Positions 5,734 to 64,000 of a stretch of 64,000 bases of DNA are shown here, piece by piece; positions within the stretch are counted from its first letter, which is position 1; the number at the start of each line of letters is the position of its first letter. Under the pieces are notes generated by a model. The model searched no databases. It worked only from the letters and a program-made list of their open reading frames with translations, and had not been told where the DNA came from. Both the position numbers and the translations under genes were made by a program. The DNA is taken from contig NC_088654.1 of NCBI RefSeq assembly GCF_964019385.1, forward strand, positions 25,442,941 through 25,506,940, written 5' to 3'. Origin of the DNA: Sycon ciliatum. Taxonomy: Eukaryota > Porifera > Calcarea > Leucosolenida > Sycettidae.

Positions 5734-6709
5734 ATGCGTAACGTTACGGCCTGTATTGAATTGTGTACTTTGAAGTTATTTGTGGCAGCTCAAATTAGAA
5801 AAGATAGTAAATATCCCTGTTGCAATCAACATATCACGTATAATGACATAATTACTCAATCTGCGGACAGCATGCTGTAATGACATAATTATTACTTTAT
5901 TGGAATTTGAAAAATAAATTCAAGTAACCATGACAATATTACATGTGTTACGTGCGTGGAAATATGTCGCTAAGCCAATAAGCCGATCGTTATGATATCA
6001 GCTGAGCCACTAAGGAAATATCACGATCGTTTCAGCCCTAGGACTCTATGAGCATGCGCACTGAGAGAGAGGATGTTGATTTTGAGAGAGACGAAGTTTC
6101 CTTTTACTTGTGGGATTTTGTCTTTGCTTCTGGAGTGAATTGTAATTCTTTTCTTTGACTGCTGTGGAAATAAATAATCCTAAGAAATCCTGCAAGCAAG
6201 CAGGTTACAATACCAGCGATCTATATCTTTGTGCATAGATTGGTGTTTCTTCGTGTCGTATGTTTATCCTCATATTTCCAGCTTTGCAATAGTTGTTGGG
6301 GGTAGATAAAAGTGTGTTTGACGTGGTGTCCATTTAAAATCAGTTGAGTCAAATGGCCTGGAATAGCGCTTCCGATCATTGGTCATAGCACAGCCATGCA
6401 GATTTGGCTAAGAGCAAAACATATTGTAGACTCAATGTGACAACGTTTTCGAATCAAAACACCTAGACAGAATGTGAATTTGACCCCGCTCCTGTTTTTC
6501 GTGTGATCTCTGATAAGCTTCTGCAGCCTCTACAAATGATGCACTATATTGCCAGGTGGAAATTGGGCCAAGTGTTTTGCTACACCTGTGGCATATGGAA
6601 AGGGTTTCTAAAATCCCATTTCGAAAGTTAAGTTTGGATGAACTTTCAACTTCTTTTCATTTCTATCAAATTAAAAAAAAATTATTGCTGTTTTATCACG
6701 ACTCTGCAG
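5734..6709. other. unannotated sequence upstream of the first visible host exon
   Basis: AT-rich sequence with no long frame and no recognisable repeat. The last 40 bases are a polypyrimidine tract ending in CTGCAG, which is the acceptor of the exon at 6710. It is probably intron. Confidence 0.5.
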
Positions 6710-7012
6710 TTCCTCCTGCGCCAATTGTCAATTCTGCAAGGCCACTAGCCACCGAGGTGACAATTCACCTAACACGTGTAAAAGGAAATTATCACTTGTC
6801 CAACTTCTGCTGTTACTTCACAAGGCAATCGGTGTCCGACATACATATGTCAAACTTGTCAAGTGTCCTGATCTGCAACAAGACCAGTCCTGTTGTCCTT
6901 TCACCGGTTGAAGAAGATGCAACATATATATATCACTGTGTTGCTAGAAACACGTATAATGCATTGGATGGAAATGCTACAGAACAAAAAATGTTCAGTA
7001 CAACAGCAACAG
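6710..7012 (+). CDS. host exon A1: Cys-containing FN3-like domain
   Basis: Acceptor CTGCAG and donor GTAGGG bound a 303-base symmetrical phase-1 exon. The domain starts V-P-P-A-P. The strand B region lacks the FN3 Trp; strand C carries N-F-C-C-Y-F-T; a third Cys is in L-I-C-N-K-T; strand F has E-E-D-A-T-Y, which replaces the usual L-x-P-x-T-x-Y; a fourth Cys follows in Y-H-C-V-A. There are three N-glycosylation sequons. It is the first visible domain; upstream exons must exist outside the window or be unrecognised. Confidence 0.85.
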
Positions 7013-8255
7013 GTAGGGAGCCGGTATCAGAGATTTGTTGCAGAATATGCAGAGAGCAGACTAGCAAACCCTGCAGCTGTGTTCTGGGGAAATAAGGAGA
7101 GTTGAAGTACAATAATGCTGCAGTATGGAGTGCTGCATACTGGCATGTTGCCAATGCACTTGACATGCTCTCCTCCGCTTTGTACACTTCCTTTAAAATC
7201 CTCTAAGTGGTAGTATCCCGAAACTCCTAAGGTCCCCCATCAATCATCGCCTTGAGGCAAGCTGATTGAAGGCTTGTGCACATGGGTCCTGGAAGGTAGG
7301 TTTTCACCCAAGTTGTGCTGGCTCAAACATCAACTAAGGTTCCCTGAAAGACAGCACCAGCTTTTTGGGACTCCCACTTTATGTGTTGAGAGCTTTTTGC
7401 TCACTTCGTTTCACATTGCTAGCCATTCTTGCATGTGTGAACTGCTACTCGGGATGTGTATGATGAGACGGGGTGCATACTGCATACTGTTGGTCATTGC
7501 ATCATCACTGCATCACTTTAACCTTTGCATTGCTGAGCCCATAGTATTACACAACAGTATTACGTGATGAGTGTACATCGCGCATTGATGAGAATTAACA
7601 GGGCGTGCATATGTTCATATGCCCGTTAATTCTTACTCGATTCCCAATCGAAATAATGTAGGGCGATGCGAAAGCTCTCAGCTTGCAATCGGATCAATAT
7701 TCGTTGATTTATGATGCTCCATAGACAAGCATACCCACACGAAACCAACGACTATTGTGCAGTGAGTGGGTGCTTGATTTTCTTCTTTCTGTGTTTTTTT
7801 CAACGTGGTGCCACGACTACTCCGAGATATTGACCTGCGGGAGTGTTCAAAAAACATTTGACCTCGATACAACCGAGGAGAGTCAAATGGCGGCTGAAAG
7901 AAAACTTTCTTTTGATTTTTGCAAACGCGACTTTGGGACAAATTCGCTTAGTTCTAAATCTTGTCTCCTGTCATGGGAAGACTTATGGTTCAGCTCCTCT
8001 TTTTCCTGGTTGTAGTAGCTTTCCAGGAAGCCAAAGACCATGAAATATGGAGAATGTGGATGACTGAGCTACGGCCTTTTACCTGCAGTATGTTTTTAGT
8101 AAAAATGACCCGTTTTCTCTGATCCTTAGGGCCCTGGCAGCAGTATACGCATACATACACCGGTACACCGCATGCACTCGATTGTTTAGTGAATGCTTCA
8201 GACTATTTTGATAGCTGGATTGCCTTGCTAGTGCTAAGCTTGATGTACATGATGA
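7013..8255. other. intron sequence with a short hairpin
   Basis: No gene-like frame is supported. An inverted repeat at about 7591-7637 (GAATTAACAGGGC with GCCCGTTAATTC) is the only structure noticed; it may be a miniature palindrome. Confidence 0.5.
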
Positions 8256-8785
8256 CTAGGCGCCAGGCGCGAACTGATGGTGGTGAGAAGGAGAGCTCTG
8301 TGCCAGAACTTTGCAGCTTAGAGAGCGTGTGCGGGCAGGCGTGTGTTTACCGCCATATTGCCAGGTGTGTCTTTACCACCATATTTATCAACCATAAGTA
8401 CAGCTGCAGTGGTGTCTTCAACTTCATTCTCCCGAGTCAAGCTCAGTATGAAAGACATCCAAGAAGAAGATTGCCTGATGAGTCCAGCGGGGACGAAACG
8501 TACGTCGCAATCGAGCTATGTTGTTGCTGTGTCATCTTCTATGTGCCATGCACTACTTGATGTTCCAGCCTGCTATGTCGGATACCGCCAACCATGCATT
8601 GAGTAGGCGCCAGGCACTAACTGATGGTGGTGGTTGTGAGAAGGAGAGCTCTGTGCCAGAACTTTGCAGCTTAGAGAGCGAGTGTGGGCAGGTGTGTTTT
8701 CCGCCATATTGCCAGGTGTGTCTTTACCACCATATTCATCAACCATAAGTACAGCTGCAGTGGTGTCTTCAACTTCATTCTCCCG
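8256..8785 (+). repeat. retrozyme-like direct repeat (two partial units, period about 346)
   Basis: Blocks at about 8256-8435 and 8602-8785 are near-identical direct repeats, with the same GGCGCCAGGC start and the same CATTCTCCCGAG end. The first block runs on into a hammerhead ribozyme at 8469. The second is interrupted where its ribozyme should follow, close to the MITE at 8807. Tandem units of a few hundred bases that each carry a hammerhead are the hallmark of animal retrozymes, small non-coding retroelements. Assignment to that class is an inference from this layout. Confidence 0.6.
8469..8512 (+). ncRNA. hammerhead ribozyme, minimal type I
   Basis: Stem I GATTGC pairs with GCAATC (six pairs). 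The core is CTGATGA. Stem II is GTCC/GGAC around AGCGG. GAAA follows, then a three-pair stem III (A-C-G with C-G-T, loop TA) and the cleavage triplet GTC. All invariant core bases are present and all three helices are fully paired. Cleavage is predicted after C8506. The strand is that of the host gene, so the ribozyme would also be present in the pre-mRNA intron. The very short stem III matches retrozyme and Penelope-type hammerheads, which work best in tandem. Confidence 0.88.
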
Positions 8786-8806
8786 AGGGCTGAAAGGGCT
8801 AACGAG

Positions 8807-9078
8807 TACCGTAAAAGCCCCTGTATACGCCCACTCAAAATTACGCCCACCCTCCGTGTACACGCCCAGTCAGGGGAAGTCAACACTTTTGTTTCGAAAT
8901 GGCGCCCATGCCCATGTATACACCCAGGTATGCCTGCAACACCAGTACATGTACAAATACTGATACCCAATACATACTGCTATCCCTACTCCAAGTATAT
9001 GCCGTGCCCTTGTATACGCCCAGGAAACCGAGGTTGCTATTCTATACGCCCGGGGCCTATACACGGGCTTTTACGGTA
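8807..9078. mobile_element. palindromic MITE with CCGTAAAAGCCC ends
   Basis: The terminal inverted repeat begins TACCGTAAAAGCCC on the left and reads the same on the opposite strand at the right end (GGGCTTTTACGGTA). The interior repeats short GTATACGCCC motifs. A TA duplication fits a Tc1/mariner-superfamily MITE. It has no coding capacity. Confidence 0.75.
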
Positions 9079-9121
9079 AAGCGAAAGTTCCAAACGAAAC
9101 TTTGCACTTTACAGTATTGCC

Positions 9122-9257
9122 CTTCTCCTTCTATCTCTATCTCTATCTCCATCCCACTTTATATCTATCTCTATCTATCTATCTCTCTCTATCTCCATCT
9201 CTATCTCTATCTCTCTCTCTCTCTCTATGTCTATCTATCTCTATCTATCTTTATCTA
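9122..9257. repeat. (CTATCT)n microsatellite
   Basis: Imperfect CTATCT/CTCT repeats, with a short second tract at about 9355-9380 just before the next exon. Confidence 0.9.
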
Positions 9258-9305
9258 ACATAATCAAGTAGCTCCACTGTCCGAAGAGTGAAGAGCGAGA
9301 GGGGA

Positions 9306-9355
9306 AGCTGTGTCGCAACTCCGAGTTTCACGTAGTCACGATTATTAGCTAACTG
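9306..9355 (-). ncRNA. decayed hammerhead relative
   Basis: The minus strand aligns with the hammerhead at 26405: GTGAAACTC followed by GGAGTT and, upstream, CTAATAA in place of CTGATGA. The stem II position can still pair (CGT/ACG). Two changed core bases and poor stem I pairing predict no activity. Confidence 0.4.
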
Positions 9356-9400
9356 AATCTATCTCTATTTCTATCTCTCTATTCACCTCATTATGGACAG

Positions 9401-9691
9401 CTCCAAGTGTGGCACCTGGCAACTTTATCTTGGACTCCAGAACAGCAACAACAGTAACACTCAGCTGGACTGCTGTAGACCCATACAAGCTGAATGGAAA
9501 GCTGGTTGCATACCATGTTGACTGTGCACATCAGAATGGCAGCCATGTGACATCGGCCAGTACCAGCCACACCCATGCAACACTCTCAGGACTAACTTTT
9601 GATACAACATACAACTTATCACTGGTCGCTGAATCAACCGGTGGTACCGGCAGCTACGAGAGTCGCCTGCAAAGTTCTACCACCCAGGATG
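9401..9691 (+). CDS. host exon F1: canonical FN3 domain
   Basis: The acceptor is ATGGACAG and the donor GTAAGA; the exon is 291 bases, phase 1-1. It shows the FN3 pattern A-P-S-V-A-P, T-V-T-L-S-W (strand B Trp), L-N-G-K-L-V-A-Y-H-V (strand C) and L-T-F-D-T-T-Y-N-L-S-L-V-A (strand F). It joins in frame to the exons at 6710 and 15549 through a split Ala codon on each side. Confidence 0.9.
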
Positions 9692-9891
9692 GTAAGACAA
9701 TGAGTTATTCTCATGTGGCCAGTTTTTCAACCTATCAACTGCCGAGCCCGTACTATTAAGTGATTCTAGATTATGTCCAGGCTCTTTACGTGTTCCTCAA
9801 ATACACACTTGAAAGAAGGAATCCAAGCGTTTTGCTGTAACTCTGAGTTTCACGGTTTTGTAAGAGGCACAAGCAACTGCACAGCACTGTG

Positions 9892-10150
9892 ACTAGATAC
9901 AATGTAGTATTGGAATGGACTGTAATATCTAGTAGTTTTAGTGTTACAGCGGTTGGTACATGTACTGAAACACTGAAACTGCATGCACGTGATATTCACT
10001 GATACTCTGCCATTGTTGAATTTGCACGAGAAATGGTGGAGTTACGAAGGTTTTAGTGGTCGATCATATGATCGAAAGTCTGTAGACAGGTACCAACCGC
10101 TGTAGCACAAAAACTACTAGATAATACAGTCCATTCCTATACTATCTAGT
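9892..10150. mobile_element. foldback MITE
   Basis: The left arm (9892-9959) and right arm (10090-10150) are near-perfect reverse complements. The outer ends read ACTAGATA/TATCTAGT, and the inner arm sequence GCGGTTGGTAC is shared. The centre holds the palindrome CGATCATATGATCG. There is no open frame. Confidence 0.75.
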
Positions 10151-10621
10151 TACAGTACTGTACAGATGCTCGTGACTCGTATCCATGTGTCACTGCTCCA
10201 TTCCGTGAGTGATAAAATAATATTGATCGATCTTAAACATTTTGCATCCATGTTGAAGGTCTGTTGAGTGGTCGCTTAAAAGGCTGTATTTACATGGAAG
10301 TTTTCAACCTGGGTCAAATTTCAACCCACCATGAGCACAGATTGACTGGATGGATCATTTACATGACACATTGCAGTTGACCTGGAAATTTCAACCCTTC
10401 CATCAGGGGAGGGTTGAAATCAAGGAATCGCACTACCTTACCTCTGTGCATATTTCGTGCCAGGTTTGCGCAGCACTGGAAAGGCAACGTTCACGCGAAA
10501 GTAGTTACGCGGCCATACAGCACTCTAGAAGTGGACTTTTGTCGGCATATCAGTAATTGACCTGGGTCAACCTTTTTCATGTGAGCACTCCCCAATCCCT
10601 AGTTTTTTCAATCGTACAGAA
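10151..10621. other. intron sequence left of gypsy element 1
   Basis: No gene is seen. The repeated words TTTCAACCC and GGGTTGAAA recur here and again just right of the LTR element (15355-15375). The gypsy element probably inserted into an older repeat. Confidence 0.4.
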
Positions 10622-10809
10622 TGTGGTAGTCATGCATTGTACATCACGGCTGTAGTACTGATGTGCACAGTCATGGTAACAGTGCATTGCGTAATGCTCT
10701 TGGCCATATGCTGCTGTTGAGCTGGTTTTACAGATGAAGAATCTGAGAGACACAATGGCTAGTTGTCTATTCTTTCCGTGTGCTTAGTCTGGCTTCTTGC
10801 ATGCCTACA
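10622..10809 (+). repeat. 5' LTR of gypsy element 1
   Basis: 188 bases starting TG and ending CA, matching 15162-15349 at every position compared. It contains the element promoter by position; no clear TATA box was identified. Confidence 0.95.
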
Positions 10810-10841
10810 TTGGCGCAGTGAACAGGCACGGATTTGTCGCC

Positions 10842-13800
10842 ATGTCCGCTCCCAAAGGCAGAGCGCCGAAGGAATTTGTACCTGACTTTTCCAGCAACAT
10901 CGGAGCCGATTTCGAATTGTGGCTCGAGGACGTTGATGATTACCTGAAAATTTGTGGAGTTACGACGGCAGCTGATAAGAAGAGGCTGTTTCTGAACCTT
11001 GCAGGCCTCGCTGTCAGGCGTATTGTTAAAGGAATCGTAGTTCCTACTCCACCAGCTCAGGCTGATGGCAGTGCCGGATGTGAGTACAAAGCTCTGACGG
11101 ATGCTGTGATTGCTCATTTTCGTCCTGCCACAAACACAACGTCGGAACGCCACCGGTTCCGTCAGCTTCGCCAGAATGAGGGTGAGTCTGTCACATCGTT
11201 TGTGGGACGCCTGCGCGAAGCAGCTGATCGCTGTGAATTTGCGTCTACTGCCGTGGACACCATTGATCAGGGACAAATCCGTGACCAGTTGATCGAGGGC
11301 CTGCGATCCCAGGAGCTACGTAAAGAACTTCTCAAAGAGTCAAAGTTGACACTAGCCAATGCTGTGAGCAAAGCTGTGGCACTCGAGTCCTCTATCACGG
11401 ACAGCAAGCTTTATGGTGACGCTGCAGCTACTCCATTGTCGAATTCATTCTCTCACATTCACCGTGTTTCACACTCCCAGCCTGCCTCTGCGCACAAGAA
11501 GTTTGGGAAGTGCAAGTACTGTGGCCGCTCGCATCCAAGAGGCAAGCAGCATTGCCCTGCAGCGGATGCTACTTGTGGCAACTGCTCGAAAGTCGGCCAC
11601 TTTACAACAGTATGCCTGTCGCGCAAGTCTGATAATGCGCGCATGACATCCGAACAGGTGGAGGAGGATGACGCCAACTATTTCTGTGATTACGCATTCT
11701 CAGTGGATACTTCTCAGCACCAGCAATTGTTTCGTAAGACGCTGATCGTCAACGGCCGTCCCTGTGAAGGACTACTGGATACCGGTGCTACCCGATCAGT
11801 GCTAACCGATGATGTTGTCCAGCCAACGCGAAAGAGTGATCGAATCTTGAAAGCGTACAATGGCGGCGTCATCTCAACACTCGGTATGGCTGATGTGACG
11901 GTCTCTGTTGGATCACGCAGCATCGTATGTAGTTGTTTTGTTGTCCCAGTCGCGTCTGGCCGCCAAATCCTGTATGGCCAGGACGTCATCTCCGAACTGG
12001 AGTTGCTGACCTCTGCTGAAGTCAATGTGGTGAACGTGACGCCCATCTCTATCACAGTGGACCCTGACACCACTCCAACAGCACTCCCACCCCGTCGGCA
12101 CGCTTTCAGCATCCGGGATGAAATTGCCAAGGAGTTGGATCGTCTGGTGAAGCATGACATAATCGAGCCAGTGCGAGAAGCTACTCCGTGGGTCTCACCG
12201 TTGGTGCCGGTCAGGAAATCAAGCGGTGCTTTGCGTCTCTGCGTGGACTACCGCGTCCTAAACAAGAGCGTAGTCCGGGAGCGTCACCTACTTCCCACCG
12301 TTGACGAAATCAATGCGCAGCTGGACGGTGCAACAGTGTTCTCCGTTCTGGATGCTGAATCTGGCTTTCACCAGCTCCCTTTGGCCGATGAATCTCGTCC
12401 GTTCACCACTTTCGCCACTCACAAGGGCCTCTTTAGATTCAAGAGACTCCCGTTTGGCATTGCTTGCGCACCGGAGATATTTCAACGTGTGGTGTCTGAC
12501 ATCCTTGCCGGCCTACCGGGAGTCGTTGTCTATATTGATGACATTCTCATCTATGCCCGCAACCGACAGGAACACGACGAGCGCATGGCTGCCGTACTCC
12601 GTCGTTTGAGCGAAGCCAACCTGCGCTTAAACTGGGAGAAGTGTCGCGTACGCCAGTCAGAAATCAAGTACTTGGGACACTGGCTGAGCAAGGATGGTGT
12701 GCGTCCTGACGGTGACAAGCTGCTGGCAATCCAACAGTTGCAGCTGCCGCAGACGTTGACAGATGTACGTCGTTTCCTTGGTATGGTGACGTACCTTGGT
12801 AAATTCATACCGCAGCTCTCACAGACAACTGAGCCGCTGAGGAAACTGGCTCAGCGACAACCATTCGTCGTTGATGATGAGCTGACGGCCGCGTTCACCG
12901 ATGCGAAGACAGCCGTGGCCTCGTCGCTAGAGTGCTTAGCGTACTTTAAGCCATCCTTGGACGTCCCAACCAAGGTAACATGTGACGCATCTCCACTTGG
13001 TCTGGGTGCTATTCTGTGGCAGCAAGACAAGAGTGGCACTTGGTTACCTGTCACCTGCGCCAGCCGTTCATTGTCCGATGTTGAATCTCGTTATTCCCAG
13101 TTGGAGCGCGAGATGCTTGGTATCGTATTCTCTCTGACTCGATTCCGACAGTACGTCCTGGGGAGATCTGTTCAAGTTGTGACCGACCACAAGCCCCTGA
13201 TCTCAATCGTCCAGAAGCCGTTTGACGAAGTACCACCACGGCTGCAGCGCTGGATGGTCGCTCTCATGCCATACCAGTACACCTTGTCACATGCACCTGG
13301 GAAGCAGATGGTGTGTGAAGACACATTGTCAAGAGCGCCTGTCCAAGACTCAACTGCCTCACCAGAAGAAGCCCGCTCTATGGCTGAGTTCATTGGCCTG
13401 GTCTTGGAAGAGTGCCCAGTCAATATCGACGATATCGCCAAGGCGACTAGTGATGACCCACTGTTGCGCAGCATACAGCAGCGCGTCTTGATGCAATCAT
13501 GGTCCCAAGTCACACCCGCTGAAGAGCCATACTACCTTATCCGAGATCAGCTGACGACCATTGACGGCATCCTGCTATTCGGTAACCGCTGTGTAATACC
13601 AGAAGCTCTCCGACATGCCGTACTGCAGTTGGCCCATGAAGGTCATCCAGGTCGGGACATATTCAAGGATGCTTTGCGACGACGAGTATGGTGGACCGGC
13701 ATGTCTAAAGATGCCGACAAGTTCGCCGAGCAGTGTTCAGAGTGTTGGCGCCGTCATACAAACCCCGCACAAGAGCTGCTGCCATCAGAAATTGAAGGAG

Positions 13801-14852
13801 TGTGGCAGAAACTGGCGGTTGATCTGGTGTGTATCGAGGGTCAACAAGTATTATCCATCGTCGACTACGGTTCACGCTATCCGGAGCTACTTCCCTTGTC
13901 AGCTACCACAACCGCAGCTGTCATTGACCGGCTGATGGAAGTGTTCGCGAGGTTCGGCCTGCCTAGCGTGTTGGTGTCCGACAATGGCCCCCAGTTTGCC
14001 TCAGCCGAAATGGCCCAGTTCCTGCAGCGGTTGGGTATCCAGCACAATCGATCAAGCCCACGCTACCCCAGATCTAATGGCATGGTGGAACGTCTTCATC
14101 GAGTCGTCAAAGAGAGAATTCAATCTCTACGACCGTCCCTGTCTTTGCAACGCCGTTTGCAACAAGTTCTCTTTGATATTCGCAACTCAGTGCACCGAAT
14201 GCTGGGCATGTCACCCAATGAGGCTTTCTTCGGTCGCATGGTTCGCACCCGTCTACCTCACCATTCTACCCCACGCATTGTGAATGCTTCTCATCAGATT
14301 CGCGCCAAAGCTGACATGGCAGTCTCGCATGATAGTCGCCGCGGTGTCCGCCAGTTGCCTATGCTGCGTCCTGGCACAATGGTAGTCTTGCAGGATGGCT
14401 ATTCCGACCCAACTACCCCTTGGCGTGTTGTGGAGCAATATGGCAGACAAGTCGGCGTCACTGATGGCAGGCGGATACTGCTCCGAAATCGGCAGCATGT
14501 GCGAGAACATGCTTCACCTGCATCATCAACTGCCACCTCTTCTCGGTCTTTGGATCTCCAGCCAGTTCCGACGCCAGATCCCCAGCCAGCTACCGAGTCA
14601 GAAGTGAAATCCTCGGCACCTAATGCAGATGTGCCGCCTGCTACGCCTACTGCTCCGTGTGAAGCAGGAGTGGAATCTGAGATCAAAGAGGCTGATGCTC
14701 AGATTCATCCCGAGTCCAGTGACCAATCACGTCGTCAATCACGCCTACCACGGCCCGATGCCCAGTCTGGCTCGCTCTATCGCGAGGGCTATGTAACCCG
14801 CGCTGGCCGCACTGTCAAGCTCACTGAGAAAGCTGCTGGTGCATTGATGTAA
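10842..14852 (+). CDS. Gag-Pol polyprotein of gypsy element 1
   Basis: The Met at 10842 is preferred because the earlier in-frame Met lies inside the LTR. The product is about 1336 residues. Gag ends with two zinc knuckles (C-K-Y-C near residue 225 and C-G-N-C-S-K-V-G-H-F near 248). The protease has L-L-D-T-G-A-T near 309. The RT active site is V-V-Y-I-D-D near 563. RNase H has T-C-D-A-S-P near 713. The integrase has an H-H-C-C zinc site from about 930 to 968 and a D-D-E core (L-A-V-D-L-V, S-D-N-G-P-Q-F, G-M-V-E-R). Gag and Pol share one frame, so no frameshift signal is needed. No chromodomain was recognised. Confidence 0.95.
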   Translation: MSAPKGRAPKEFVPDFSSNIGADFELWLEDVDDYLKICGVTTAADKKRLFLNLAGLAVRRIVKGIVVPTPPAQADGSAGCEYKALTDAVIAHFRPATNTTSERHRFRQLRQNEGESVTSFVGRLREAADRCEFASTAVDTIDQGQIRDQLIEGLRSQELRKELLKESKLTLANAVSKAVALESSITDSKLYGDAAATPLSNSFSHIHRVSHSQPASAHKKFGKCKYCGRSHPRGKQHCPAADATCGNCSKVGHFTTVCLSRKSDNARMTSEQVEEDDANYFCDYAFSVDTSQHQQLFRKTLIVNGRPCEGLLDTGATRSVLTDDVVQPTRKSDRILKAYNGGVISTLGMADVTVSVGSRSIVCSCFVVPVASGRQILYGQDVISELELLTSAEVNVVNVTPISITVDPDTTPTALPPRRHAFSIRDEIAKELDRLVKHDIIEPVREATPWVSPLVPVRKSSGALRLCVDYRVLNKSVVRERHLLPTVDEINAQLDGATVFSVLDAESGFHQLPLADESRPFTTFATHKGLFRFKRLPFGIACAPEIFQRVVSDILAGLPGVVVYIDDILIYARNRQEHDERMAAVLRRLSEANLRLNWEKCRVRQSEIKYLGHWLSKDGVRPDGDKLLAIQQLQLPQTLTDVRRFLGMVTYLGKFIPQLSQTTEPLRKLAQRQPFVVDDELTAAFTDAKTAVASSLECLAYFKPSLDVPTKVTCDASPLGLGAILWQQDKSGTWLPVTCASRSLSDVESRYSQLEREMLGIVFSLTRFRQYVLGRSVQVVTDHKPLISIVQKPFDEVPPRLQRWMVALMPYQYTLSHAPGKQMVCEDTLSRAPVQDSTASPEEARSMAEFIGLVLEECPVNIDDIAKATSDDPLLRSIQQRVLMQSWSQVTPAEEPYYLIRDQLTTIDGILLFGNRCVIPEALRHAVLQLAHEGHPGRDIFKDALRRRVWWTGMSKDADKFAEQCSECWRRHTNPAQELLPSEIEGVWQKLAVDLVCIEGQQVLSIVDYGSRYPELLPLSATTTAAVIDRLMEVFARFGLPSVLVSDNGPQFASAEMAQFLQRLGIQHNRSSPRYPRSNGMVERLHRVVKERIQSLRPSLSLQRRLQQVLFDIRNSVHRMLGMSPNEAFFGRMVRTRLPHHSTPRIVNASHQIRAKADMAVSHDSRRGVRQLPMLRPGTMVVLQDGYSDPTTPWRVVEQYGRQVGVTDGRRILLRNRQHVREHASPASSTATSSRSLDLQPVPTPDPQPATESEVKSSAPNADVPPATPTAPCEAGVESEIKEADAQIHPESSDQSRRQSRLPRPDAQSGSLYREGYVTRAGRTVKLTEKAAGALM

Positions 14853-15146
14853 TATCTCCATTTTTGACTGACCATGTTGCATAACTATGCCAATTTGCAA
14901 TTTAGTTGCTGGTTTGGTTTGTTCTGTTTGTATCGTGGTACAGGTTTGATGTATCTTCAGTGAGTTGACCCGTCAGTGTCAGGGTGTATCGAATTTGTTG
15001 CTTTGAATTGATTCTTTGCTCGTTTCCTCTGCAATTTTATTGTTCTTTTCTTGTCTGCAATTTTCTCCTTTTTTCTTTTTCCTTTTTTTTCTCTCCTTTT
15101 TTTTTTTTCTCAAACAGGTTTGCATTTGCAGACAATTTTTTTTCTT

Positions 15147-15161
15147 AGGGAAGGGGGGTAA
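15147..15161 (+). promoter_or_regulatory. polypurine tract of gypsy element 1
   Basis: The run AGGGAAGGGGGGTAA lies directly before the 3' LTR. It is the expected primer site for plus-strand synthesis. Confidence 0.8.
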
Positions 15162-15349
15162 TGTGGTAGTCATGCATTGTACATCACGGCTGTAGTACTG
15201 ATGTGCACAGTCATGGTAACAGTGCATTGCGTAATGCTCTTGGCCATATGCTGCTGTTGAGCTGGTTTTACAGATGAAGAATCTGAGAGACACAATGGCT
15301 AGTTGTCTATTCTTTCCGTGTGCTTAGTCTGGCTTCTTGCATGCCTACA
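15162..15349 (+). repeat. 3' LTR of gypsy element 1
   Basis: Identical by eye to the 5' LTR. The flank downstream begins CAGAC. Confidence 0.95.
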
Positions 15350-15548
15350 CAGACTTTCAACCCGGGGTTGAAAGTTCTCATGTTAACACAGCCTTCAGCA
15401 TGCTTTACTGTATGTGCACAAGGCCCGGTATCGCGGTGTGGTGGGCACTCTCTCTCGTGCAGCCATGACTCACTTCAAGTTTGCACGTTGTCTTCATCAT
15501 GCTTACAACTTACTAGTGGTGCTTTGTTTGTACTCTATTTGCAAACAG

Positions 15549-15842
15549 CACCGCCAGCACCCATGTTCATGGTTTCAACATCAACAACATGGATATCTGT
15601 GACTTTCACCAAACTGACTGGACAATTCTATGTTGCAAATTACTGCTGTGACTTCACGCAACTTTCCGTGTCCGGAACTGATTCAAAGAAAGGAACCATA
15701 CGTCTTTGCAGCGACACCATATACCTCAATCTGACTGGAACTGAAGAAGATGCCACGTATAGCCTGACAGCGTTTGCCAACAATACAGAAGGGCATATTG
15801 GCGAGAATGCTACAATGAACAATGTGATAACTAAACCAGCAG
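15549..15842 (+). CDS. host exon A2: Cys-containing FN3-like domain
   Basis: The acceptor is GCAAACAG and the donor GTACTC; the exon is 294 bases, phase 1-1. It starts A-P-P-A-P. The signature N-Y-C-C-D-F-T, R-L-C-S-D-T and T-E-E-D-A-T-Y repeats that of A1. Three sequons are present (N-L-T, N-N-T, N-A-T). The strand B Trp is again missing. The donor is weaker than at the other exons but matches in position and phase. Confidence 0.85.
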
Positions 15843-16172
15843 GTACTCGATATTCAAATAATCTACGTGGAGATAAAAGTTTAATAATAGCAATGAAAAG
15901 TATGAATGCCGCAGACATCACCACGCAACATGACAATTTGTTCAAGGTTTGGTTTTGTGTGTTTCCAAAATCGATTTTCACGTTCCGATCATCAGTGGAA
16001 ATACGGAACTAAAGAGAACAAGGGGAAAACAAAGGTTAAAAATCCAAAGAAGTGTGACACACGACGGGTAACTTGTGGTAAGTATTACAAAAAGTGAGAA
16101 CTAAAATAAAGAGTAAGTGTGACAAACGGGCATGAACAGTGCAGAAACAACTCATGAACACGGGGTGCAAAC

Positions 16173-19337: not shown

Positions 19338-20451
19338 ATATCCGTTCTGTGTAAACCAGTCAAGAGAAACATACGACGGCACAGAGTCCTCTCCACCCTG
19401 CACGGTCCCTTGCCAGGATCCGTAGGCGCTGCAAGTCACCAAGCGACACAAGCCTTCCATTATCCGCTTTCGCCAGGTTTCCCGACAGCTTCGTGACAAT
19501 TGTGACACGTGGGCGTCCTCGCCAGGTCTTCTCATCGTGCGTGAAATACGCCGCCATTGCCAATGATGCTGGGGTGTCCTCTGGCAAGCGGAGAATGTGA
19601 CCAAAGAGTTAGTAGTAGTAGTAGTCTTTTATTTTCCATCGGAAGCCTCAACAGTGATGAACACAACTCTTAAGAGGGCCGATAACAGAGTAGAGGGGTG
19701 TGGGGTGAGAAAAAATAATAATAATAAGAGATATTTAAACTAAACTAAACTGATACTTGGAACAATAAAGCAGCAGTAAGCAGTAAGCAGTAAACACAGG
19801 TATACAATACAAGAGTTGCCACCGCAGACGCTTGAGAATGTTGGTGATTTGCTCAGCTTTGCACCTGGCGTACAAAGAGACATTCGTCATCTTCTGACGC
19901 CAACTAATGCCAAGTAGTGATCGCAGTTGCTGACGGTGGGAGGAATCGAGACTCTGCTCCAAAGCCACCTTCAAGCCCCATGTTCCGCCGTCAGTGTAGG
20001 TCAGTACTGGTATGAAAAACGCCTGATAGAGCCTCTGGCGCATCTTCTCACTGATAAGCTCTCGTCAACACCACACAGCAAAGAGTGACCTGAAAGCAGC
20101 TGTTGTGAGCTGCTTCCTTCTGATCACGTCTTGTTCATCACCCAGAAGTGACCCAAGCTTACGTGTCTTTCTCCAGACTTCCGCTAGACGATCCCCTTCT
20201 CTGCGTAGTGTTTTTTGCTCAGTTTTCTCTTCGTTCACTTTGAGATGCCATTCTCTGAGGACCTCAGTTATGCTTGGGCTGATACTATCCAACCATGTCC
20301 GTGAGCTGCTCAGAAAATCCGTATCATCAGTATAGATAACTTCCCCAGGCAAGAGTTCATCAGCTGGCAGCCTGGGAGGTAACGTGGCCTTGAGATCACG
20401 TAGCGCTGATTCCCAGTAAATGACTCCATCTGCATCCCCTTTGTACAACAT
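19338..20451 (-). pseudogene. LINE RT C-terminal fragment, possibly R4/Dong-like
   Basis: The minus strand has the catalytic Y-T-D-D-T-D-F, a thumb region with L-R-E-W-H-L-K-V-N-E-E-K-T-E, a C-terminal L-R-W followed (after an inserted repeat) by L-P-E-D-T-P-A-S-L-A-M, and R-G-R-P-R-V-T. It is broken by a 200-base insertion (19611-19810) and a frameshift, and is cut off at about 20440 by the next LINE. The clade is a tentative call from motif style. Confidence 0.7.
19611..19810 (-). mobile_element. short retroposon insertion with 7-base target duplication
   Basis: A 200-base block interrupts the LINE frame. It is flanked by AAGAGTT at 19604-19610 and again at 19811-19817. On the minus strand it ends GGAAAATAAAAGACTACTAC, an A-rich end with a (TAC)n tail, which resembles the 3' end of the LINE at 23.1 kb. 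It is probably a 5'-truncated LINE tail or a SINE. Confidence 0.75.
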
Positions 20452-22762
20452 TCTTTCCCACTACAATCTCTGCAATTATGTTACATCTCCAACACGGGTC
20501 ACGGCAACATCATCCACGATGCTAGATTTGTTCCTTTCAACCTCCCGATTGGATGGTACCTGTGAAGCAATACACTTAGACATAAGTGATCACTTTGTTG
20601 TGCTGGCCCGGCTGAACATTCACACACACCAGCACGTGTCATCGTCAGTGAAAACCACCAGACGTCTCCATCGAGTAAACTGGGACAGTTTCAGTATCGA
20701 CCTCCAGAGGAAACAGCAGCAAGACTTTGATGCCCACAGCAATATCCATGATATGGTTCATTCTTTCACTTCTTCTATCATGTCCACACTAGACCAGTAT
20801 GCACCATTGGTACCCCAGCGTAAACGCGCACGCCGCCCGTGCCCCTGGCTGACTGATGAGCTTGTGGGTGCAGTTCGTAAACGTAATCATTTACACCGGC
20901 TCCTCATGAGAGATCAAGCGAATGTACAATTGCGTGATCAGCATAGAGAAGCTCGGGCCATGGCCCGTCGACTCGACAGGAAGCTGCGCAACCAGTTCTT
21001 CACTGAACAATGCCGAACGAGTGACCAGCGCAAACTGTGGAGAGTGTTGAATGTTGTAACTGGTCGTCAAAAGAAAGCCCAGGTCCCACAGGCATCCCTA
21101 CAGGATCTCAGTGAAACATGTGGTAGTGTCGTACATGACCCAGCGCGTCCCGCCACTCTTCAAGCTCCCTTGGGACCAACCCAACAATGTGGTTTCTCTG
21201 CTTTCCAGCCAGTCGCAGTTTCTGCCGTCGAGTCCTGCTTGAGTTCTGTGGACCCAAGTAAGGCGACTGGCAGTGATGGTGTGCCTGGCCTACTTCTACA
21301 CAAGTTCTCCTCAATATTGGCACCCAATCTCACCAAAATTATCAACTATTCGCTCAGAACAGGCCAACTTCCTTCCACCTTCAAATCCTCACATGTCACC
21401 CCTCTGTTTAAGGGTGGCGACCCAACCTCACCTACAAACTACCGCCCAGTTTCCCTGCTACCCATCATCTCCCGTATTCTGGAGGCATTTGTAAAGAAAC
21501 AGCTCACCACCTATCTCGAATCAGCCCACCTTCTACCCACCAGCCAATTTGCCTATCGTAAACAACACTCCACAGAGGATGCACTTGCCCTCGCAGTCAA
21601 CAGATGGTCTCTAGCCAAATCTCGACGAGAGTACACCGGAGTTGTGTTCGTAGATATGTCGAAAGCGTTTGATCGCGTTCAGCACGAGCGTCTTCTGACT
21701 GAACTCTTCTCTTTTGGCATATCTGGTACTCCACTCACTTGGTTTGCTGATTACCTCTCAGGCCGCTTCCAGCAGATCAGAGTTCAAGGACATCTCTCTC
21801 CTGCCGTTTCTTGTTCTCGTGGTGTCCCACAGGGCAGCGTTCTTGGTCCCCTGCTATTTGTCTTGTACACTAGCACATTGAGCACGATCCTGCCACCGGC
21901 GGTAAACCACCAAGAATTTGCGGATGACATTACTCTCGACTGCTCAGACACCGACCCCACTGAAGTATGCCGAACCCTCAGCCACGCAATCACAAGCCTC
22001 GCCACGTGGCTAGAAGATATTGGTTTGCTGCTGAATGCAGCAAAAACTCAGCTTCTCTTCATAAAGCCCCGTGGCGCAGATGACACACAGCCTGAGGTGT
22101 TCTGCCATGCTGACAAACTCGCTATCACACCTTCGGCTAAGTATCTCGGGGTAATACTCGATGAGGAGCTGTCCTGGAAGCCCCACATTGCACACCTGAG
22201 CCGCAAGACTGCTAGGACCATTGGCCAGCTCTGGAGGCATGGCCAAGGACTCAGTTTGCGCGCCAGACGCACTTGGTTCCTCAGCATGGTCCTCTCTCAG
22301 CTATGCTATGGTTCTAATAGTTTTGTTCCTGGGCTTTCTGCCCAGTTGCTTGGACGTCTGGAGAAGAGTTTCAAAGCCGGCATTCGCGCAACCTTGCAAC
22401 AGCGCTTTCTCACCCCCACCGCACCGCTTCTGGCACTTCTTAGTATAGTCAGCCTGGCACACACATACACTCAGAAAGTTCTAATCTTTGTACACCGCTG
22501 TATCAATGGATACTGTAGCCCACTCCTACAGCAACTCTTTACAACGACTGCTCCAAACACCGTGCTAAACGATCAGCGCATCACTAGGGGCCAAGTTTCC
22601 AACTTGCTCCAAGTCCCTTTCCTTCGCGGGCCTGCTGGTCGCTCGAGTATGATGTTTCACGGCAGTATTGCATGGAACGCCCTCTCGGCTGATGTAAGAT
22701 CGATAACTGCTGCCGATCAATTCAAGAGAGCCCTATCTGATATTGACGTACTTAACTTGTAA
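20438..22762 (+). CDS. LINE endonuclease (C-terminal end) and reverse transcriptase
   Basis: About 775 residues are free of stops. The endonuclease remnant ends with M-L-D-L-F-L and S-D-H-F-V-V. The RT motifs are S-D-G-V-P-G-L-L-L-H-K, N-Y-R-P-V-S-L-L-P-I-I-S-R-I-L-E, V-F-V-D-M-S-K-A-F-D, G-V-P-Q-G-S-V-L-G-P-L-L-F and the catalytic F-A-D-D-I. The C-terminus has W-N-A-L-S-A-D-V-R-S-I-T, the standard end of Jockey/CR1/L2 proteins. The frame is intact, so the copy is fairly young, but it lacks ORF1 and most of the endonuclease. Confidence 0.9.
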   Translation, partial: PLYNILSHYNLCNYVTSPTRVTATSSTMLDLFLSTSRLDGTCEAIHLDISDHFVVLARLNIHTHQHVSSSVKTTRRLHRVNWDSFSIDLQRKQQQDFDAHSNIHDMVHSFTSSIMSTLDQYAPLVPQRKRARRPCPWLTDELVGAVRKRNHLHRLLMRDQANVQLRDQHREARAMARRLDRKLRNQFFTEQCRTSDQRKLWRVLNVVTGRQKKAQVPQASLQDLSETCGSVVHDPARPATLQAPLGPTQQCGFSAFQPVAVSAVESCLSSVDPSKATGSDGVPGLLLHKFSSILAPNLTKIINYSLRTGQLPSTFKSSHVTPLFKGGDPTSPTNYRPVSLLPIISRILEAFVKKQLTTYLESAHLLPTSQFAYRKQHSTEDALALAVNRWSLAKSRREYTGVVFVDMSKAFDRVQHERLLTELFSFGISGTPLTWFADYLSGRFQQIRVQGHLSPAVSCSRGVPQGSVLGPLLFVLYTSTLSTILPPAVNHQEFADDITLDCSDTDPTEVCRTLSHAITSLATWLEDIGLLLNAAKTQLLFIKPRGADDTQPEVFCHADKLAITPSAKYLGVILDEELSWKPHIAHLSRKTARTIGQLWRHGQGLSLRARRTWFLSMVLSQLCYGSNSFVPGLSAQLLGRLEKSFKAGIRATLQQRFLTPTAPLLALLSIVSLAHTYTQKVLIFVHRCINGYCSPLLQQLFTTTAPNTVLNDQRITRGQVSNLLQVPFLRGPAGRSSMMFHGSIAWNALSADVRSITAADQFKRALSDIDVLNL

Positions 22763-33200: not shown

Positions 33201-33724
33201 CGCACCAAAAACAAAAGATAGAGCGGTAAGGGTCAGGAAAAATAAGAATAAAGCAAGGGCAAGCAACAGCTTCCGTTCCTCAGAACGACGTGCTGCTGTC
33301 CAACGGCCTTTCATGATGCGGATTAGGCGGCGCTGTTCTTTTCCTTGAAATTGTTTCAGGACAGCTGCAGTGCCCGGCAACTTCTTTACTAGAAGATCAA
33401 GATATCATCTTTGTGTTAATCCATTGTTTTATTATAAAATGGCCTGGTGCATTGTACATGACCACCTATGTTTCGTTGATGCGAATAAAACGTGCGAAAA
33501 TAATCAGCACGCGATTTCGAGCATTTTGACATACATATCAGTGCATTGGGCTGCATTTGGATAATTAGAAGTTCCTGATAATTAGAAGTTGGGGCCTGGC
33601 AATTTGAGGTTCGAATTTTAGGGAGTCTACTTGTACATGCTTATTAACGGGCTTTTACAGTATGTGGCACCAAAGACTATTGAGCGCTTAATTCCTCACT
33701 TCATTTCCCTTATTTTCTGTGCAG

Positions 33725-34030
33725 ATGCGCCAAAGCCAAGCGTTTTTGTTGAGATATTTCCGACAAAGGTCATCGTGAACATCTCTGCAAGCACAGGAAA
33801 TTACCGTTTCTCCAAGTTCTGCTGTTACTTCACGAGGTATTCCGTATCTAACATACCAAAGTCCAACAGGCATAAGGTGACGGTTTGTAACCGTACTAGT
33901 CCCATTGTCTTCTCACCTGTTGAGGAGGATGCCAGTTACGGTAACCCGCGGCCATACTGTGTAATAAAGGACACACGTCCGGTTGACGGATATCCCACAT
34001 TTATTCAAAACTTCACCACACCAGCAACAG
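33725..34030 (+). CDS. host exon A3: Cys-containing FN3-like domain
   Basis: The acceptor is TTCTGTGCAG and the donor GTAAATA; the exon is 306 bases, phase 1-1. Motifs are A-P-K-P-S, K-F-C-C-Y-F-T-R, T-V-C-N-R-T-S and E-E-D-A-S-Y, with an extra Cys in P-Y-C-V-I. It is closest to A1 among the five, which suggests that the A-F pair was duplicated as a unit. It has three sequons. Confidence 0.85.
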
Positions 34031-34174
34031 GTAAATAATATTATTGTTCTCATTTTGTTGTTCTCAGGTCGAATTGTTGCTACTGCTAGTCCCGCATCAT
34101 CTCCACATTCACCGATACTTAACACAACATGCCCATGATCCAGGTTGATATTTGGACCATTGGCTTTGCCTTGG

Positions 34175-47231: not shown

Positions 47232-48063
47232 CACTCAAAATGTCCAGGAACCGAATTCGAGAGAAACCCCTTTCCTACTTGTAAATCTAAAACTTTCATC
47301 AACAGAAACTAGTCCGATGTACAACAGTAGAATACAGTCCAATGAGCATAGTCTCCTGATGATCGCGTAAGAACCTTCGGCAAGAAAATCTAGAGGAGAG
47401 ATGCACAGATTGTTTCCACTGAACCTTGTACATGGTGGTAGCTTCGCTGAATGCAACTCTACATCCTGCTTTGTGAGACTGTGCAATTTCACTTTCCGCT
47501 TTTGAGCCCAGAAAAGGCCAAGGAGAGTAAATTTCAAATCCGGCCAGGTTTCACTAATTTAGGACATGACATGACATTGCACTCATGGCAAAATGTATGT
47601 AGAAGCAGGTCAAACATCCAGATTTTTCAAAATTCAAGTAGGCTTTAGCCTCAATTCGGACAAAAATTTGTCTTTCAAAACCAGCTGGACGATTTTGAAT
47701 TTTAGGGTTTTGCGTCGGCGGCAATGGACGGCTGGGATCGTCAACTGTGCAACAAAGAAGTTGAGGCCAAAGGGAAAGATTTATTTTCTTGCGCATGCTT
47801 TGTGTATGGTGTGACGTCATCGTCAGAGTCATGCCGCTACAGAATAATACGGATCGCAGACCATGATCAGGAAACTTTTCTCGGGATGCTGAGAATGAAA
47901 CAAAACTCAGCTGCCCCGAAATGGCAGCCGAATGATAGAATAGGTGTACCAAGCTCTTCATGAAATTTTACTGTGGAAGCTTGAAACTTTAATTCAAAAT
48001 TTGGGATGGAATCTTCAAATTTCGTCTTATCACCTTTCATTATCCACTGTTCTCTATTTGCAG
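47232..48063. other. intron sequence, no gene seen
   Basis: No long frame with family similarity. It ends in the acceptor TTCTCTATTTGCAG. Confidence 0.5.
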
Positions 48064-48351
48064 CTCCACGAGTTGCCCCGTCAGATATAAAATTCAGGTC
48101 AAGCACAGCTACAACTGTCCGTATCAGCTGGTCGGCAGTGAACCCATACGAGTTAAATGGAGTACTGGTGGGCTACAATGTTACATGCTGGAAAGGTACG
48201 AACCTTATAACGTATGTGCACACTAAAACAGAGAACGCGAACGTGACTGGCTTGAAGTTCAACTCCAAGTATAAAGTTTCAGTTGCAGCCATCTCATCAG
48301 GAGGGCTAGGTGTTTACTCAAACTACACCAATGTCACAACATCACAGAATG
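48064..48351 (+). CDS. host exon F3: canonical FN3 domain
   Basis: The acceptor is CTATTTGCAG and the donor GTAAGTG; the exon is 288 bases, phase 1-1. Motifs are A-P-R-V-A-P, T-V-R-I-S-W-S-A-V-N-P-Y-E-L-N-G and K-Y-K-V-S-V-A-A-I-S-S-G-G. It shares D/N-P-Y-x-L-N-G with F1, in line with duplication of the A-F pair. It contains sequons N-V-T, N-Y-T and N-V-T. Confidence 0.9.
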
Positions 48352-49634
48352 GTAAGTGTCGTGTTTTTTATATTCCGGTACTATGTGTTGTCAATTCTTT
48401 TATCGACTACATTGATGCACATGCATTCCACAAGTCCAAATATTATTCCTTTATGCTGAATTTTCATCATCTTTCTCTCCGCTTAGGAGCTGCGTTTGCA
48501 CCTTCAGCCTAGAGGGTGGTGGTTCTTGATCCACGTACACCAACATATCAACATAGATACAGACAACGGAAGCAGGAGGGTACAAAGTGAGGGGTAAAAG
48601 GTCACAGCCAGAGGTGACTAGCAACACTGGTGAGACTCAAAAAACTGACTGAAGAAGTCAGACAAAAAGAACAACAACAACAACAACAACAACAACAGAA
48701 GAAAAATATATCACACGCTATATTCACAAGAGGAGAAATGTTGTTGCGCAAGCAATCTTTTCTCGCCTATCTCGCTCCGCTCGGCCGACCAGAAATAATA
48801 ACATTCATGCAGATACGGACAACTCAATCTAGATGAGCCTCACACAATCGTGCAGAATATTTGGAAGCAAAGTTACGTTTAAAAGGAAGTTGGTTCCTCC
48901 CAACACTTGAGCTCGCTCTTTTCCCGTCAACTTGACTTGACACTGGACTTCAAGCCCAAGTATTGTGTGCAACCCACCTTCTTTTGATTATCCCTGAAGT
49001 TTCTACAACTGACGAGGAGACAACAGTAGTAAAATAGCAATGAAAAATACTAATTGTGCACTCATAACCATGTATAAAACAATTAAAATGAAACAATGCC
49101 AGAACGTTTTCCCGTGACTATCATCCGTGGAAGATCGTCACATAGTAAGAATCACTAAAACAACCAGTTATAATTATAGCTAGAATAATATGAAGAGCTT
49201 GAGAACAAAACACGGTATATCCATTTTGGCACTTTTCGGGTAAAGTCAAAATTCTGTTCTGACATTGTCTTACATCCCATCCCAATGGAAATTTGGATTT
49301 AGTACCAGAAGGAATACTGGACCCCAAACACCATGTCATCAAAAATCCACACCTCTCAGATTTTGATATTTTTTAGTGTTGAAACGATCTCACCGGATAC
49401 TCGTTAGCTCGCTCGCCAGAAACTCGGCTCGTTTGTGCGGCCAGCTCGTTTGCACTAACGAACACCGTACACCGTACTTCGTACACATGGCAGTACATGT
49501 CGACCGGGGAGTCGTAAAATATTTTATCCCATGGTACGGTACTATAGGCCTGTTTCAGCCAATCAGGAGCCTTGCTGACCGGGAAATAATAGCCAATACA
49601 ATCCCGCGCGGGATGATATTCATTATTAACTGGG
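48352..49634. other. intron with (CAA)n and Penelope-like end trace
   Basis: A (CAA)n tract lies at about 48670-48696. At about 49037-49190 the sequence matches the flank of Penelope-like copy 3 (CGTTTTCCCGTGACTATCATC, then ACTAAAACAACCAGTTATA), including a decayed hammerhead-like core on the minus strand. No coding frame is supported. Confidence 0.6.
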
Positions 49635-61393: not shown

Positions 61394-62040
61394 CACACAA
61401 ACCCGAGTTTGTACGACTCCCTGATGTACAGATCAGGGCCATCGTTGGCCGAAATATAGAAAAGTTGAACGAGTAAACCACGTACCTGTTGTCTGTAAAA
61501 AAATTAATAAAAATCACCGGAAAATGCTTTAAAAAAAGTGCAACACGGCATGCACACATAATTATATAGTCATGTACATACATGTACATGGGAAAAAATA
61601 AAAAATAAAATTCGCCCACCCGCACCAATTTCACATGGGTCCTGCCCGGGAATCTCGATTTTATTTTGGTCTCGCCTTACAGTACTTAATACTAGAAATT
61701 AATCCTTGCTGGGGGTTTTCTCATCTAAATGTCCAGCTATTAACTGCAGAGGTGATTTCTTCTCTCGTCGATTTCTTTCCTGCTATTATACCTCGATTAT
61801 GTAGGTACTTGTTTCCCATTTTCCCATGCTTCATCTTCCCCTCTCCTCTCCCCCATTTCACCTTTTTTCTTGCTATATTTATGTAGGAGACTTCCGTGAT
61901 AAGCATCCATTTGCTTTTGGAGAATCCTTTTAAATAAATACAATACAATACAATACATGTAGCAATTTCACCTGATACTCTGTCAAGCAATGTACTTATC
62001 AAGTGGTTATGTTTGATCATCCTCTGACTTGTTGTTCTAG
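61394..62040. other. intron with a LINE-tail-like end
   Basis: AAATAAATACAATACAATAC at about 61932-61957 follows a pyrimidine-rich stretch and looks like the 3' tail of a LINE. The acceptor TTGTTCTAG ends the intron. Confidence 0.45.
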
Positions 62041-62340
62041 TTCCAAGTCGTGCTCCGTCAAACCTGGATGTTACCGGCGAGACTAGCACATCTGCTCAGC
62101 TGCAATGGTCTCCAATTCCCCTACTGGACCAGAATGGAAAAATCACATTATACCACGTCAACGTCACGGCTGTCTATCCCGTCAGTGAAGTCTCAAGCAA
62201 AACATTCCTTGCATCTGCCCTTAATGGGACTATTGTCCGGCTGAAACCATACACGATGTATGAAGTGGCCATTGCCGCTGCTACTGGTATTGGCAGGGGA
62301 GATATCTCTAACTTCACATCGTTCCAGACCCAGCAAGCAG
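62041..62340 (+). CDS. host exon F5: canonical FN3 domain
   Basis: The acceptor is TTGTTCTAG and the donor GTGAGG; the exon is 300 bases, phase 1-1. Motifs are V-P-S-R-A-P, S-A-Q-L-Q-W-S-P-I-P, N-G-K-I-T-L-Y-H-V-N-V and L-K-P-Y-T-M-Y-E-V-A-I-A-A-A-T-G. No A-type exon was found between it and F6. Confidence 0.9.
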
Positions 62341-63528: not shown

Positions 63529-63822
63529 CACCAAGTATTGGACCAACCGTGACCAACACATCCTACTTAAGCAGCACTGCTCTGCAACTGGCCTGGCGAG
63601 AGCTCGCACAGCAGGATCTAAACGGTGTGTTGGTACGCTATGACATCAGGATTGTCAGCCCTGGAAACTACACACAGGTGTTTAATGTGACAAGCAACGA
63701 GACCAGTCTGACTATCACCCAGCTTGAGATCAACACTGTGTACAACCTGTCTGTGAGGGCTGTGACAGAGGCTGCACCTGGTCCATTTGGCAGCCAAGTA
63801 CCACAACGTACAGATGAATCTA
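63529..63822 (+). CDS. host exon F6: canonical FN3 domain
   Basis: The acceptor is ATCTGCAG and the donor GTAAGCC; the exon is 294 bases, phase 1-1 (the split codon begins with A). Motifs are A-P-S-I-G-P, A-L-Q-L-A-W, L-N-G-V-L-V-R-Y-D-I-R-I and L-E-I-N-T-V-Y-N-L-S-V-R-A-V-T. It follows F5 directly, breaking the alternation. It could instead be the first domain of a separate gene that starts at 63465 with a signal peptide. Confidence 0.85.
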
Positions 63823-64000
63823 GTAAGCCATGCACATGTGCACACCGTTTTTTTCAGGTGACTTTTCTCAAACTCAATGCGTGGAGAATTATTTCACCAC
63901 GTCTCAAGATGGGTCTTGCCTCGAAATTGGGATGATGTTGCTTTACTCTTTGTCAGTGGTTGTGTTGCCCAGAGACTGCTTGAAGCGTGTTGTGAGCATG
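63823..64000. other. intron start, runs off the window
   Basis: Begins with the donor GTAAGCC. No further exon before the edge. Confidence 0.6.

Follow-up and report, generated by a model that had tools for sequence, protein, structure and literature searches.

Insertions of a hammerhead retrozyme family in the sponge Sycon ciliatum bear a Penelope-like mark

What is an apparently intact hammerhead ribozyme doing in the probable intron of a sponge gene, and by what means did it get there? The ribozyme lies in a stretch of 64,000 nucleotides (nt) of the genome of the calcareous sponge Sycon ciliatum (assembly GCF_964019385.1, contig NC_088654.1, positions 25,442,941 to 25,506,940; hereafter the window), within a direct repeat that was originally predicted, from the letters of the window, to be a truncated retrozyme dimer. 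Judged by its alignment to related copies elsewhere in the genome, the window copy is old, a decayed remnant of a 352-nt retrozyme of the metazoan, non-LTR (long terminal repeat) type. As such it is an unremarkable representative of elements already known, its interest coming from the insertion mark of the family to which it belongs, which is that of Penelope-like elements (PLEs). The insertions of this family are mostly divergent, begin at two fixed sites (A and B) that are paired one of each in 25 of 25 classifiable cases, are each close to a single template in sequence and share their geometry with the PLEs of the same genome. Taken as a whole these data are best explained by PLE machinery that copies retrozyme RNA circles, with priming by the two nicked strands at sites A and B, an explanation that we regard as very probable.

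The ribozyme is the sole match reaching the gathering threshold of any Rfam model in the 64-kb window (gathering score of RF00163, 34; Table 1), and with its helix I open-ended it is of type I. As the original prediction stated, all core bases are present (CUGAUGA, GAAA and UC), and of the three helices it described as fully paired, helix I (GAUUGC/GCAAUC, 8469-8474 with 8507-8512) and helix II (GUCC/GGAC, 8482-8485 with 8491-8494) hold, whereas its three-pair stem III depends on how the letters are read. These letters, ACGUACGU (8498-8505), are a perfect palindrome, so that a monomer would form either two pairs with a GUAC loop or three pairs with a strained 2-nt loop, while a dimer would form eight pairs. 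The cut is predicted directly 3′ of C8506 (read by eye). An unusual stability of the unit RNA was considered and rejected, shuffled sequences folding slightly better (z 1.65).

The original prediction had staked itself on the presence of other copies of the unit in the genome, and such copies exist. In 538 Mb of sequence on 313 contigs there are at least 174 matches to the 352-bp unit, in tandem clusters stepping 352 bases, the figure being a lower bound as 40 of 1663 candidate places were scored, favouring likeness to the window copy. Every cluster among the matches listed was taken, giving 39 loci that with the window make 40 sources and 39 distinct insertions, since L029 duplicates the window copy, L036 duplicates L032 (same target duplication) and L034 contains two insertions. 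The 32-nt ribozyme core is letter-identical in 100 of the 113 complete units cut from the fetched arrays, which together with the number of genome matches excludes a chance origin, and the window ribozyme, with its letters intact, is a genuine type I hammerhead whose cleavage is predicted. Arrays reach up to about 18 unit lengths per insertion and no coding capacity was seen in the unit. The genome-wide count of Rfam hammerheads is incomplete, 74 of 76,236 candidates having been scored.

Divergent arrays, in which an arm of minus-strand copies is followed by an arm of plus-strand copies, account for 29 of the 39 distinct insertions. A clean target duplication of 11-15 bp surrounds the whole insert in 26 of the 39 (12 or 13 bp in 18 of these 26), and the duplicated sequences are 65% AT against 54% in the flanks. 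Where a single duplication encloses both arms, the most simple reading is that both arose in one event.

The outer (3′) ends of the two-arm inserts, at which RNA copying would start, fall at two sites about 38 nt apart in the unit (phase 1 being the first base 3′ of the ribozyme cut), with 54 of 58 ends at A (238-251, mean 241.5) or B (274-287, mean 279.8), as assigned with bins of 228-255 and 268-292 that were set after the data had been seen. Each of the 25 two-arm inserts with both ends classifiable has one A and one B end, AA and BB being absent, for which the chance under independence is 3e-8. The ends of the one-arm inserts lie within the same bins in 10 of 10 cases, that of L031 being below the observed A range and within the A bin (Table 1). 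Two internal starts that leave a tail of 30-40 nt are the signature of Penelope-like mobilisation, and the 352-bp family carries it. Inner ends by contrast are spread round the unit (Rayleigh p 0.17, against p 8e-21 for the outer ends). Of the 27 B-arm inner ends, however, 10 fall within 34 nt at phases 83-116, a modest cluster (p 0.009; for A arms p 0.82) that perhaps reflects a pause at a GC-rich hairpin. At the head-to-head junctions the arms overlap by at least 3 nt in 7 of 29 cases, where 4.8% would be expected (p 3e-4). The ribozyme cut itself (phase 352/1) was rejected as an insertion end in the 352-bp family, the nearest outer end being at phase 24.

Complete units differ by a mean of 0.66% within an arm (257 pairs), 0.83% between the arms of one locus (101 pairs) and 2.46% between loci (5970 pairs). 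At all seven loci tested, each of which has units from the two arms and no fewer than three complete ones, one to five founder variants are fixed across all units of either arm, and unit length can likewise be specific to a locus, with 351 nt in 15 of 16 units of L024 and 355 nt in seven of eight of L046. The simplest reading of these patterns is that each insertion would have been copied from one circle.

The PLEs of this genome show the same geometry. At least 57 matches to one 807-amino-acid protein with a GIY-YIG domain were obtained (56 of 3573 candidates scored), many of them with open frames of 800-900 amino acids. Several stand in tandem or divergent arrays whose frames are about 900 amino acids long, and the stretches compared within the array on C7 are 99.5-99.9% identical. 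All five two-arm PLE insertions that were read, three of which (C7, C1 and C11) belong to one PLE family, combine one A and one B end, with a gap between the sites of 35-39 nt against 38 nt in the retrozyme. In three PLE families the first base of the motif CTGCAG lies 10-11 nt past site A (by eye for L053), within coding sequence that reads MKLQ (translated by eye). The retrozyme has the motif at phase 251, 10 nt after A, and every one of its 113 complete units contains it; among 22 bins of sixteen bases that of phases 241-256 is the sole invariant one. The position of CTGCAG between A and B is suggestive of a recognition element. A hairpin just 5′ of A common to PLEs and retrozyme was rejected, the three PLE families having 6-bp stems each equalled by 8-19% of shuffles and the retrozyme a 4-bp stem equalled by 41%. 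The retrozyme ribozyme lies about 40 nt after site B, and in the C7 and C5 PLEs a ribozyme-like motif lies about 100 nt before A.

Mobilisation of retrozymes by PLEs has been proposed from their co-occurrence, shared ribozymes and tandem form (PMC7229834; PMC7761336; published work is cited here from the consulted portions of each paper). A curation guide states that retrozymes may depend on PLEs (PMC8969392), and a 2024 review leaves open whether a long interspersed nuclear element (LINE) or a PLE is the mover (PMC11722881). The purified PLE protein of a lizard (Anolis, PAc) cuts and extends both strands, with reverse transcription beginning at two adjacent internal sites to give the "tail" signature (Frangieh et al., 2024; PMC11167929). 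The Sycon insertions bear this mark, reported as PLE-specific, at near base resolution, and the proposal thereby becomes a testable mechanism. Tandem copies would be transcribed and the RNA cut by the hammerhead into 352-nt units, which a host ligase would close into circles; in other animals retrozyme cleavage, in vitro circularisation by ligase and abundant circles have been reported (PMC7229834). Both nicked DNA strands would prime on one RNA circle, one at A and the other at B, using the PLE protein, each strand would copy between part of a lap and many laps, and the resulting pair of complementary DNAs would be united head to head, in many cases at microhomology. A literature search that had most subscription papers and all supplements outside its scope turned up neither divergent arrays of retrozymes nor PLE tails on them.

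A further-reaching claim, which we hold to be somewhat more plausible than not, is that animal retrozymes are parasites of PLEs with a copied PLE start-site module (A, CTGCAG and B) and that integration consists in one circle being primed by both nicked strands at once, at A and B. If this is true, strict A and B pairing would reveal an obligate integration complex of two reverse transcriptases on one RNA common to PLEs and retrozymes. The rule of one start of each kind is not predicted by the published PLE biochemistry and is testable in the existing in vitro system.

A number of points weigh against the copying of circles by PLE machinery. Cleavage, ligation and circles are predictions for this genome, the ribozyme fold is missing from the circular minimum free energy structure of the unit (by eye) and forcing it costs 2.4 kcal/mol (104-nt stretch). 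The 39 insertions were drawn from 40 of 1663 candidates, selected by likeness to the window copy, and 13 of them are without a clean 11-15 bp duplication, having none or a shorter repeat, or lying within simple-repeat or tandem-repeat sequence (the window copy, L010, L014, L020, L022, L027, L031, L033, L037, L038, L041, L042 and L044). Four of the 29 two-arm inserts have one end outside the bins (L010 at phase 24, L032 at 186, L033 at 223 and L040 at 197). The units of an array are not independent, and gene conversion could partly explain their homogeneity. CTGCAG is six bases only and was picked post hoc, and the three PLE families are not independent witnesses to it, because they are related and the motif is in coding sequence; beyond it no convincing similarity between retrozyme and PLEs was found, the matches being short and the local alignment score equalled by 69 of 500 shuffles. 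The GC content of 52.6% (one unit of L016) is above the value of less than 50% reported for animal retrozymes, which is taken as typical and not as defining. In the consulted part of the lizard study, start sites in vitro did not differ between strands, a result that gives no ground for expecting strict A and B pairing, and mutants of the ribozyme remained capable of insertion (PMC11167929).

The insertion of those mutants bears on an alternative in which the arrays were copied from long linear multimeric transcripts, the enzyme starting at A and B on one linear RNA. Unprocessed RNA was inferred to be the main substrate in the lizard study (PMC11167929), and the local PLEs are likewise arranged in tandem and divergent arrays. 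Transcription of an array of mixed composition would yield mixed units, whereas the units of an array are nearly alike and show, in both arms, length or founder variants specific to the locus; such uniformity would also result from a source array that was itself homogeneous. On balance we consider copying from a linear template unlikely, though it deserves to be kept in view.

It is very improbable that the arrays are the work of LINE-type machinery through ordinary twin priming and that their likeness to PLE tails is coincidental. Twin priming in LINEs yields head-to-head inversions, and a frame with a non-LTR-like reverse transcriptase lies in the window itself (RVT_1 in 20420-22762). The LINE mechanism however starts at the 3′ end of the RNA, which would not lead one to expect two internal starts at fixed positions 38 nt apart, each used once.

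In the window 8254-8787 aligns cleanly with the array unit over about 1.5 units at 94.3% identity (blastn; phases 95-283). A decayed 5′ part (8221-8253) corresponds to phases of about 38-59 and 87-94, the stretch between them missing, with a local alignment score equalled by one of 1000 shuffles. Phase 95 was rejected as the 5′ end of the copy, as this alignment and a 10-nt match place the limit of the decayed part at about 8221 (phase 38), and for the same reason the 5′ end is uninformative on where copying stopped. The truncated dimer and the retrozyme-like direct repeat of the original prediction are borne out, the former by some 1.6 units and the latter by a spacing of 347-353 between repeats that belong to the 352-bp family. 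Between the part copies there are 7 substitutions in 181 aligned bases, in addition to insertions and deletions, against a within-arm mean of 0.66%, which marks the insertion as old relative to most arrays. The copy has one detectable arm, with a 3′ end of class B, and a search for a second arm or a target duplication found none. A short inverted-repeat element with 26-nt arms (92%) at 8807-9078, just downstream, may be connected with the missing duplication.

The intron location given by the original prediction is likely, since an fn3 domain (PF00041, E 8.1e-13) is encoded downstream on the same strand at 9349-9759, with an AG at 9399-9400; the upstream exon (to 7012, followed by GT) would be as its reading frame suggests, that frame having no Pfam match. 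Further fn3 domains are encoded on the plus strand at 47985-48512, 62028-62555 and 63459-63935, and the frames at 6517-7095, 15287-16012 and 33622-34038 gave no Pfam match. Such a position on the sense strand of a probable intron raises the idea that the ribozyme was taken over by the host gene to regulate it by intron cutting, the more so as its letters have survived unchanged in what is among the most diverged of the fetched copies, as well as in a near-identical duplicate of the window copy (L029, at C13:24755830). At about 4% substitutions between the two part copies, 44 bases would stay unchanged by chance in around one case in six (our own arithmetic), and the duplicate is not independent because it shares ancestry with the window, so that host domestication is judged unsupported and very improbable. 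As to plain satellite DNA homogenised by recombination with a ribozyme by chance, the tandem period and within-array homogeneity would fit, but target duplications at 26 of 39 loci already largely refute it, as do a core identical in 100 of 113 units and fixed 3′ ends, and we give it practically no credence.

The duplicate of the window copy is part of a duplicated surrounding segment (96.9% identity to window 6210-10005, with two further segments at 99.8 and 100%). Missing from it is a probably young LTR retrotransposon at window 10620-15349, with identical 190-bp terminal direct repeats and a gag-pol frame at 10788-14852. A second hammerhead-bearing repeat of the genome has a unit of about 228 bp and the ribozyme CTGAYGAGTCCACAMAGGACGAAACAGTTC (L011:231-700, L025:5172 on the minus strand and L065-L067); its ends are nearly fixed, 33 of 43 full-length matches with extension stopping at query base 68 (about 519 bp, 2.3 units), and in contrast to the 352-bp family one end lies about 13 nt 3′ of the ribozyme cut (by eye). 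A third, hammerhead-like pair is divergent (L055:172 on the minus and L055:627 on the plus strand), adjoins a PLE array and was not reported by Rfam; one copy has a palindromic stem III, CTGATGAGCCTTACGAAGGCGAAACAGCTGTC. Contig C291 (L049) has a UvrC-like frame and is one that we take to be probably bacterial (symbiont or contaminant).

Table 1. Positions of the retrozyme fragment and its surroundings in the window, end phases of one-arm inserts, and PLE arrays and insertions of the genome.
Feature	Position or ends	Strand	Basis or remark
Retrozyme fragment, about 1.6 units	~8221..8787	+	blastn to the 352-bp array unit; local alignment for the 5′ part; genome copies
Repeat copy 1, phases 95-283	8254..8436	+	direct-repeat comparison
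Repeat copy 2, ending at phase 283 within start-site class B	8600..8787	+	direct-repeat comparison, blastn
Tail region of copy 2: A equivalent (phase 241) ~8745, B equivalent (phase 280) ~8784, CTGCAG 8755-8760	8745..8784	+	transferred by eye from the unit
CTGCAG of copy 1 (phase 251 equivalent)	8404..8409	+	sequence
Type I hammerhead ribozyme, predicted cut after C8506	8469..8512	+	Rfam RF00163 (Hammerhead_1), full length 1-45/45, 35.4 bits, E 3.7e-5; core identity in family units
Probable host intron (GT..AG) of fn3-containing gene, contains the element	7013..9400	+	downstream fn3 exon; splice dinucleotides read from the sequence
One-arm end phases	window 283, L014 241, L015 241, L030 279, L031 231, L037 277		alignment to the unit
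One-arm end phases, continued	L038 243, L041 279, L046 277, L047 240		alignment to the unit
PLE arrays, ~2.9-kb units, ~900-amino-acid frames, tandem or divergent	C7:1365523-1377181, C1:78524354-78538508, C1:97529571-97543053
PLE insertion C7	ends 343 and 379 of L057		duplication ATGTACAGTTAT
PLE insertion C5	ends 372 and 411 of L059		duplication TCCTAAATTGTT
PLE insertion L053	36-nt tail, left arm only (tail by eye)		duplication AGTTGTCTTCC
PLE insertion C1:97.5 Mb	ends 344 and 379		duplication ATTCGATTTTG (by eye)
PLE insertion C11:4.9 Mb	ends 345 and 380		duplication CACCAATTATTA (by eye)

Among known systems, plant LTR retrozymes are likewise ribozyme-bearing and non-autonomous, with a proposed life cycle through RNA circles (PMC7761336), but they have type III hammerheads and 4-bp duplications, where the 352-bp family has type I hammerheads and duplications of 11-15 bp (PMC7761336). 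With PLEs the retrozyme shares two internal starts with a tail of 30-40 bp, head-to-head inverted parts, short target duplications and a tail on one inverted repeat (PMC11167929; PMC3846280), as in the PLEs of the rotifer Adineta vaga, where one of the two inverted repeats carries a 31-bp tail and the duplication measures 8-10 bp (PMC3846280). The unit is itself not a PLE, because 352 nt are too short for a frame with reverse transcriptase and GIY-YIG endonuclease, and no sequence relation beyond CTGCAG was found between the two.

Metazoan non-LTR retrozymes have been described as having type I hammerheads in units of 170-400 nt, with target duplications of more than 4 bp (Cervera and de la Pena, 2020; PMC7229834). 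The Sycon family has type I hammerheads in tandem units of 352 bp, and 26 of its 39 insertions are flanked by duplications of 11-15 bp, the term non-LTR here referring to ribozyme type, unit size and duplications. Divergent arrays, two fixed 3′ ends and their pairing one of each go unmentioned in the consulted portion of that text (PMC7229834). In its type I hammerhead, its tandem dimers to multimers and the presence of PLEs in the same genome it resembles them (PMC7229834), and the 352-bp family fits the published metazoan non-LTR retrozymes.
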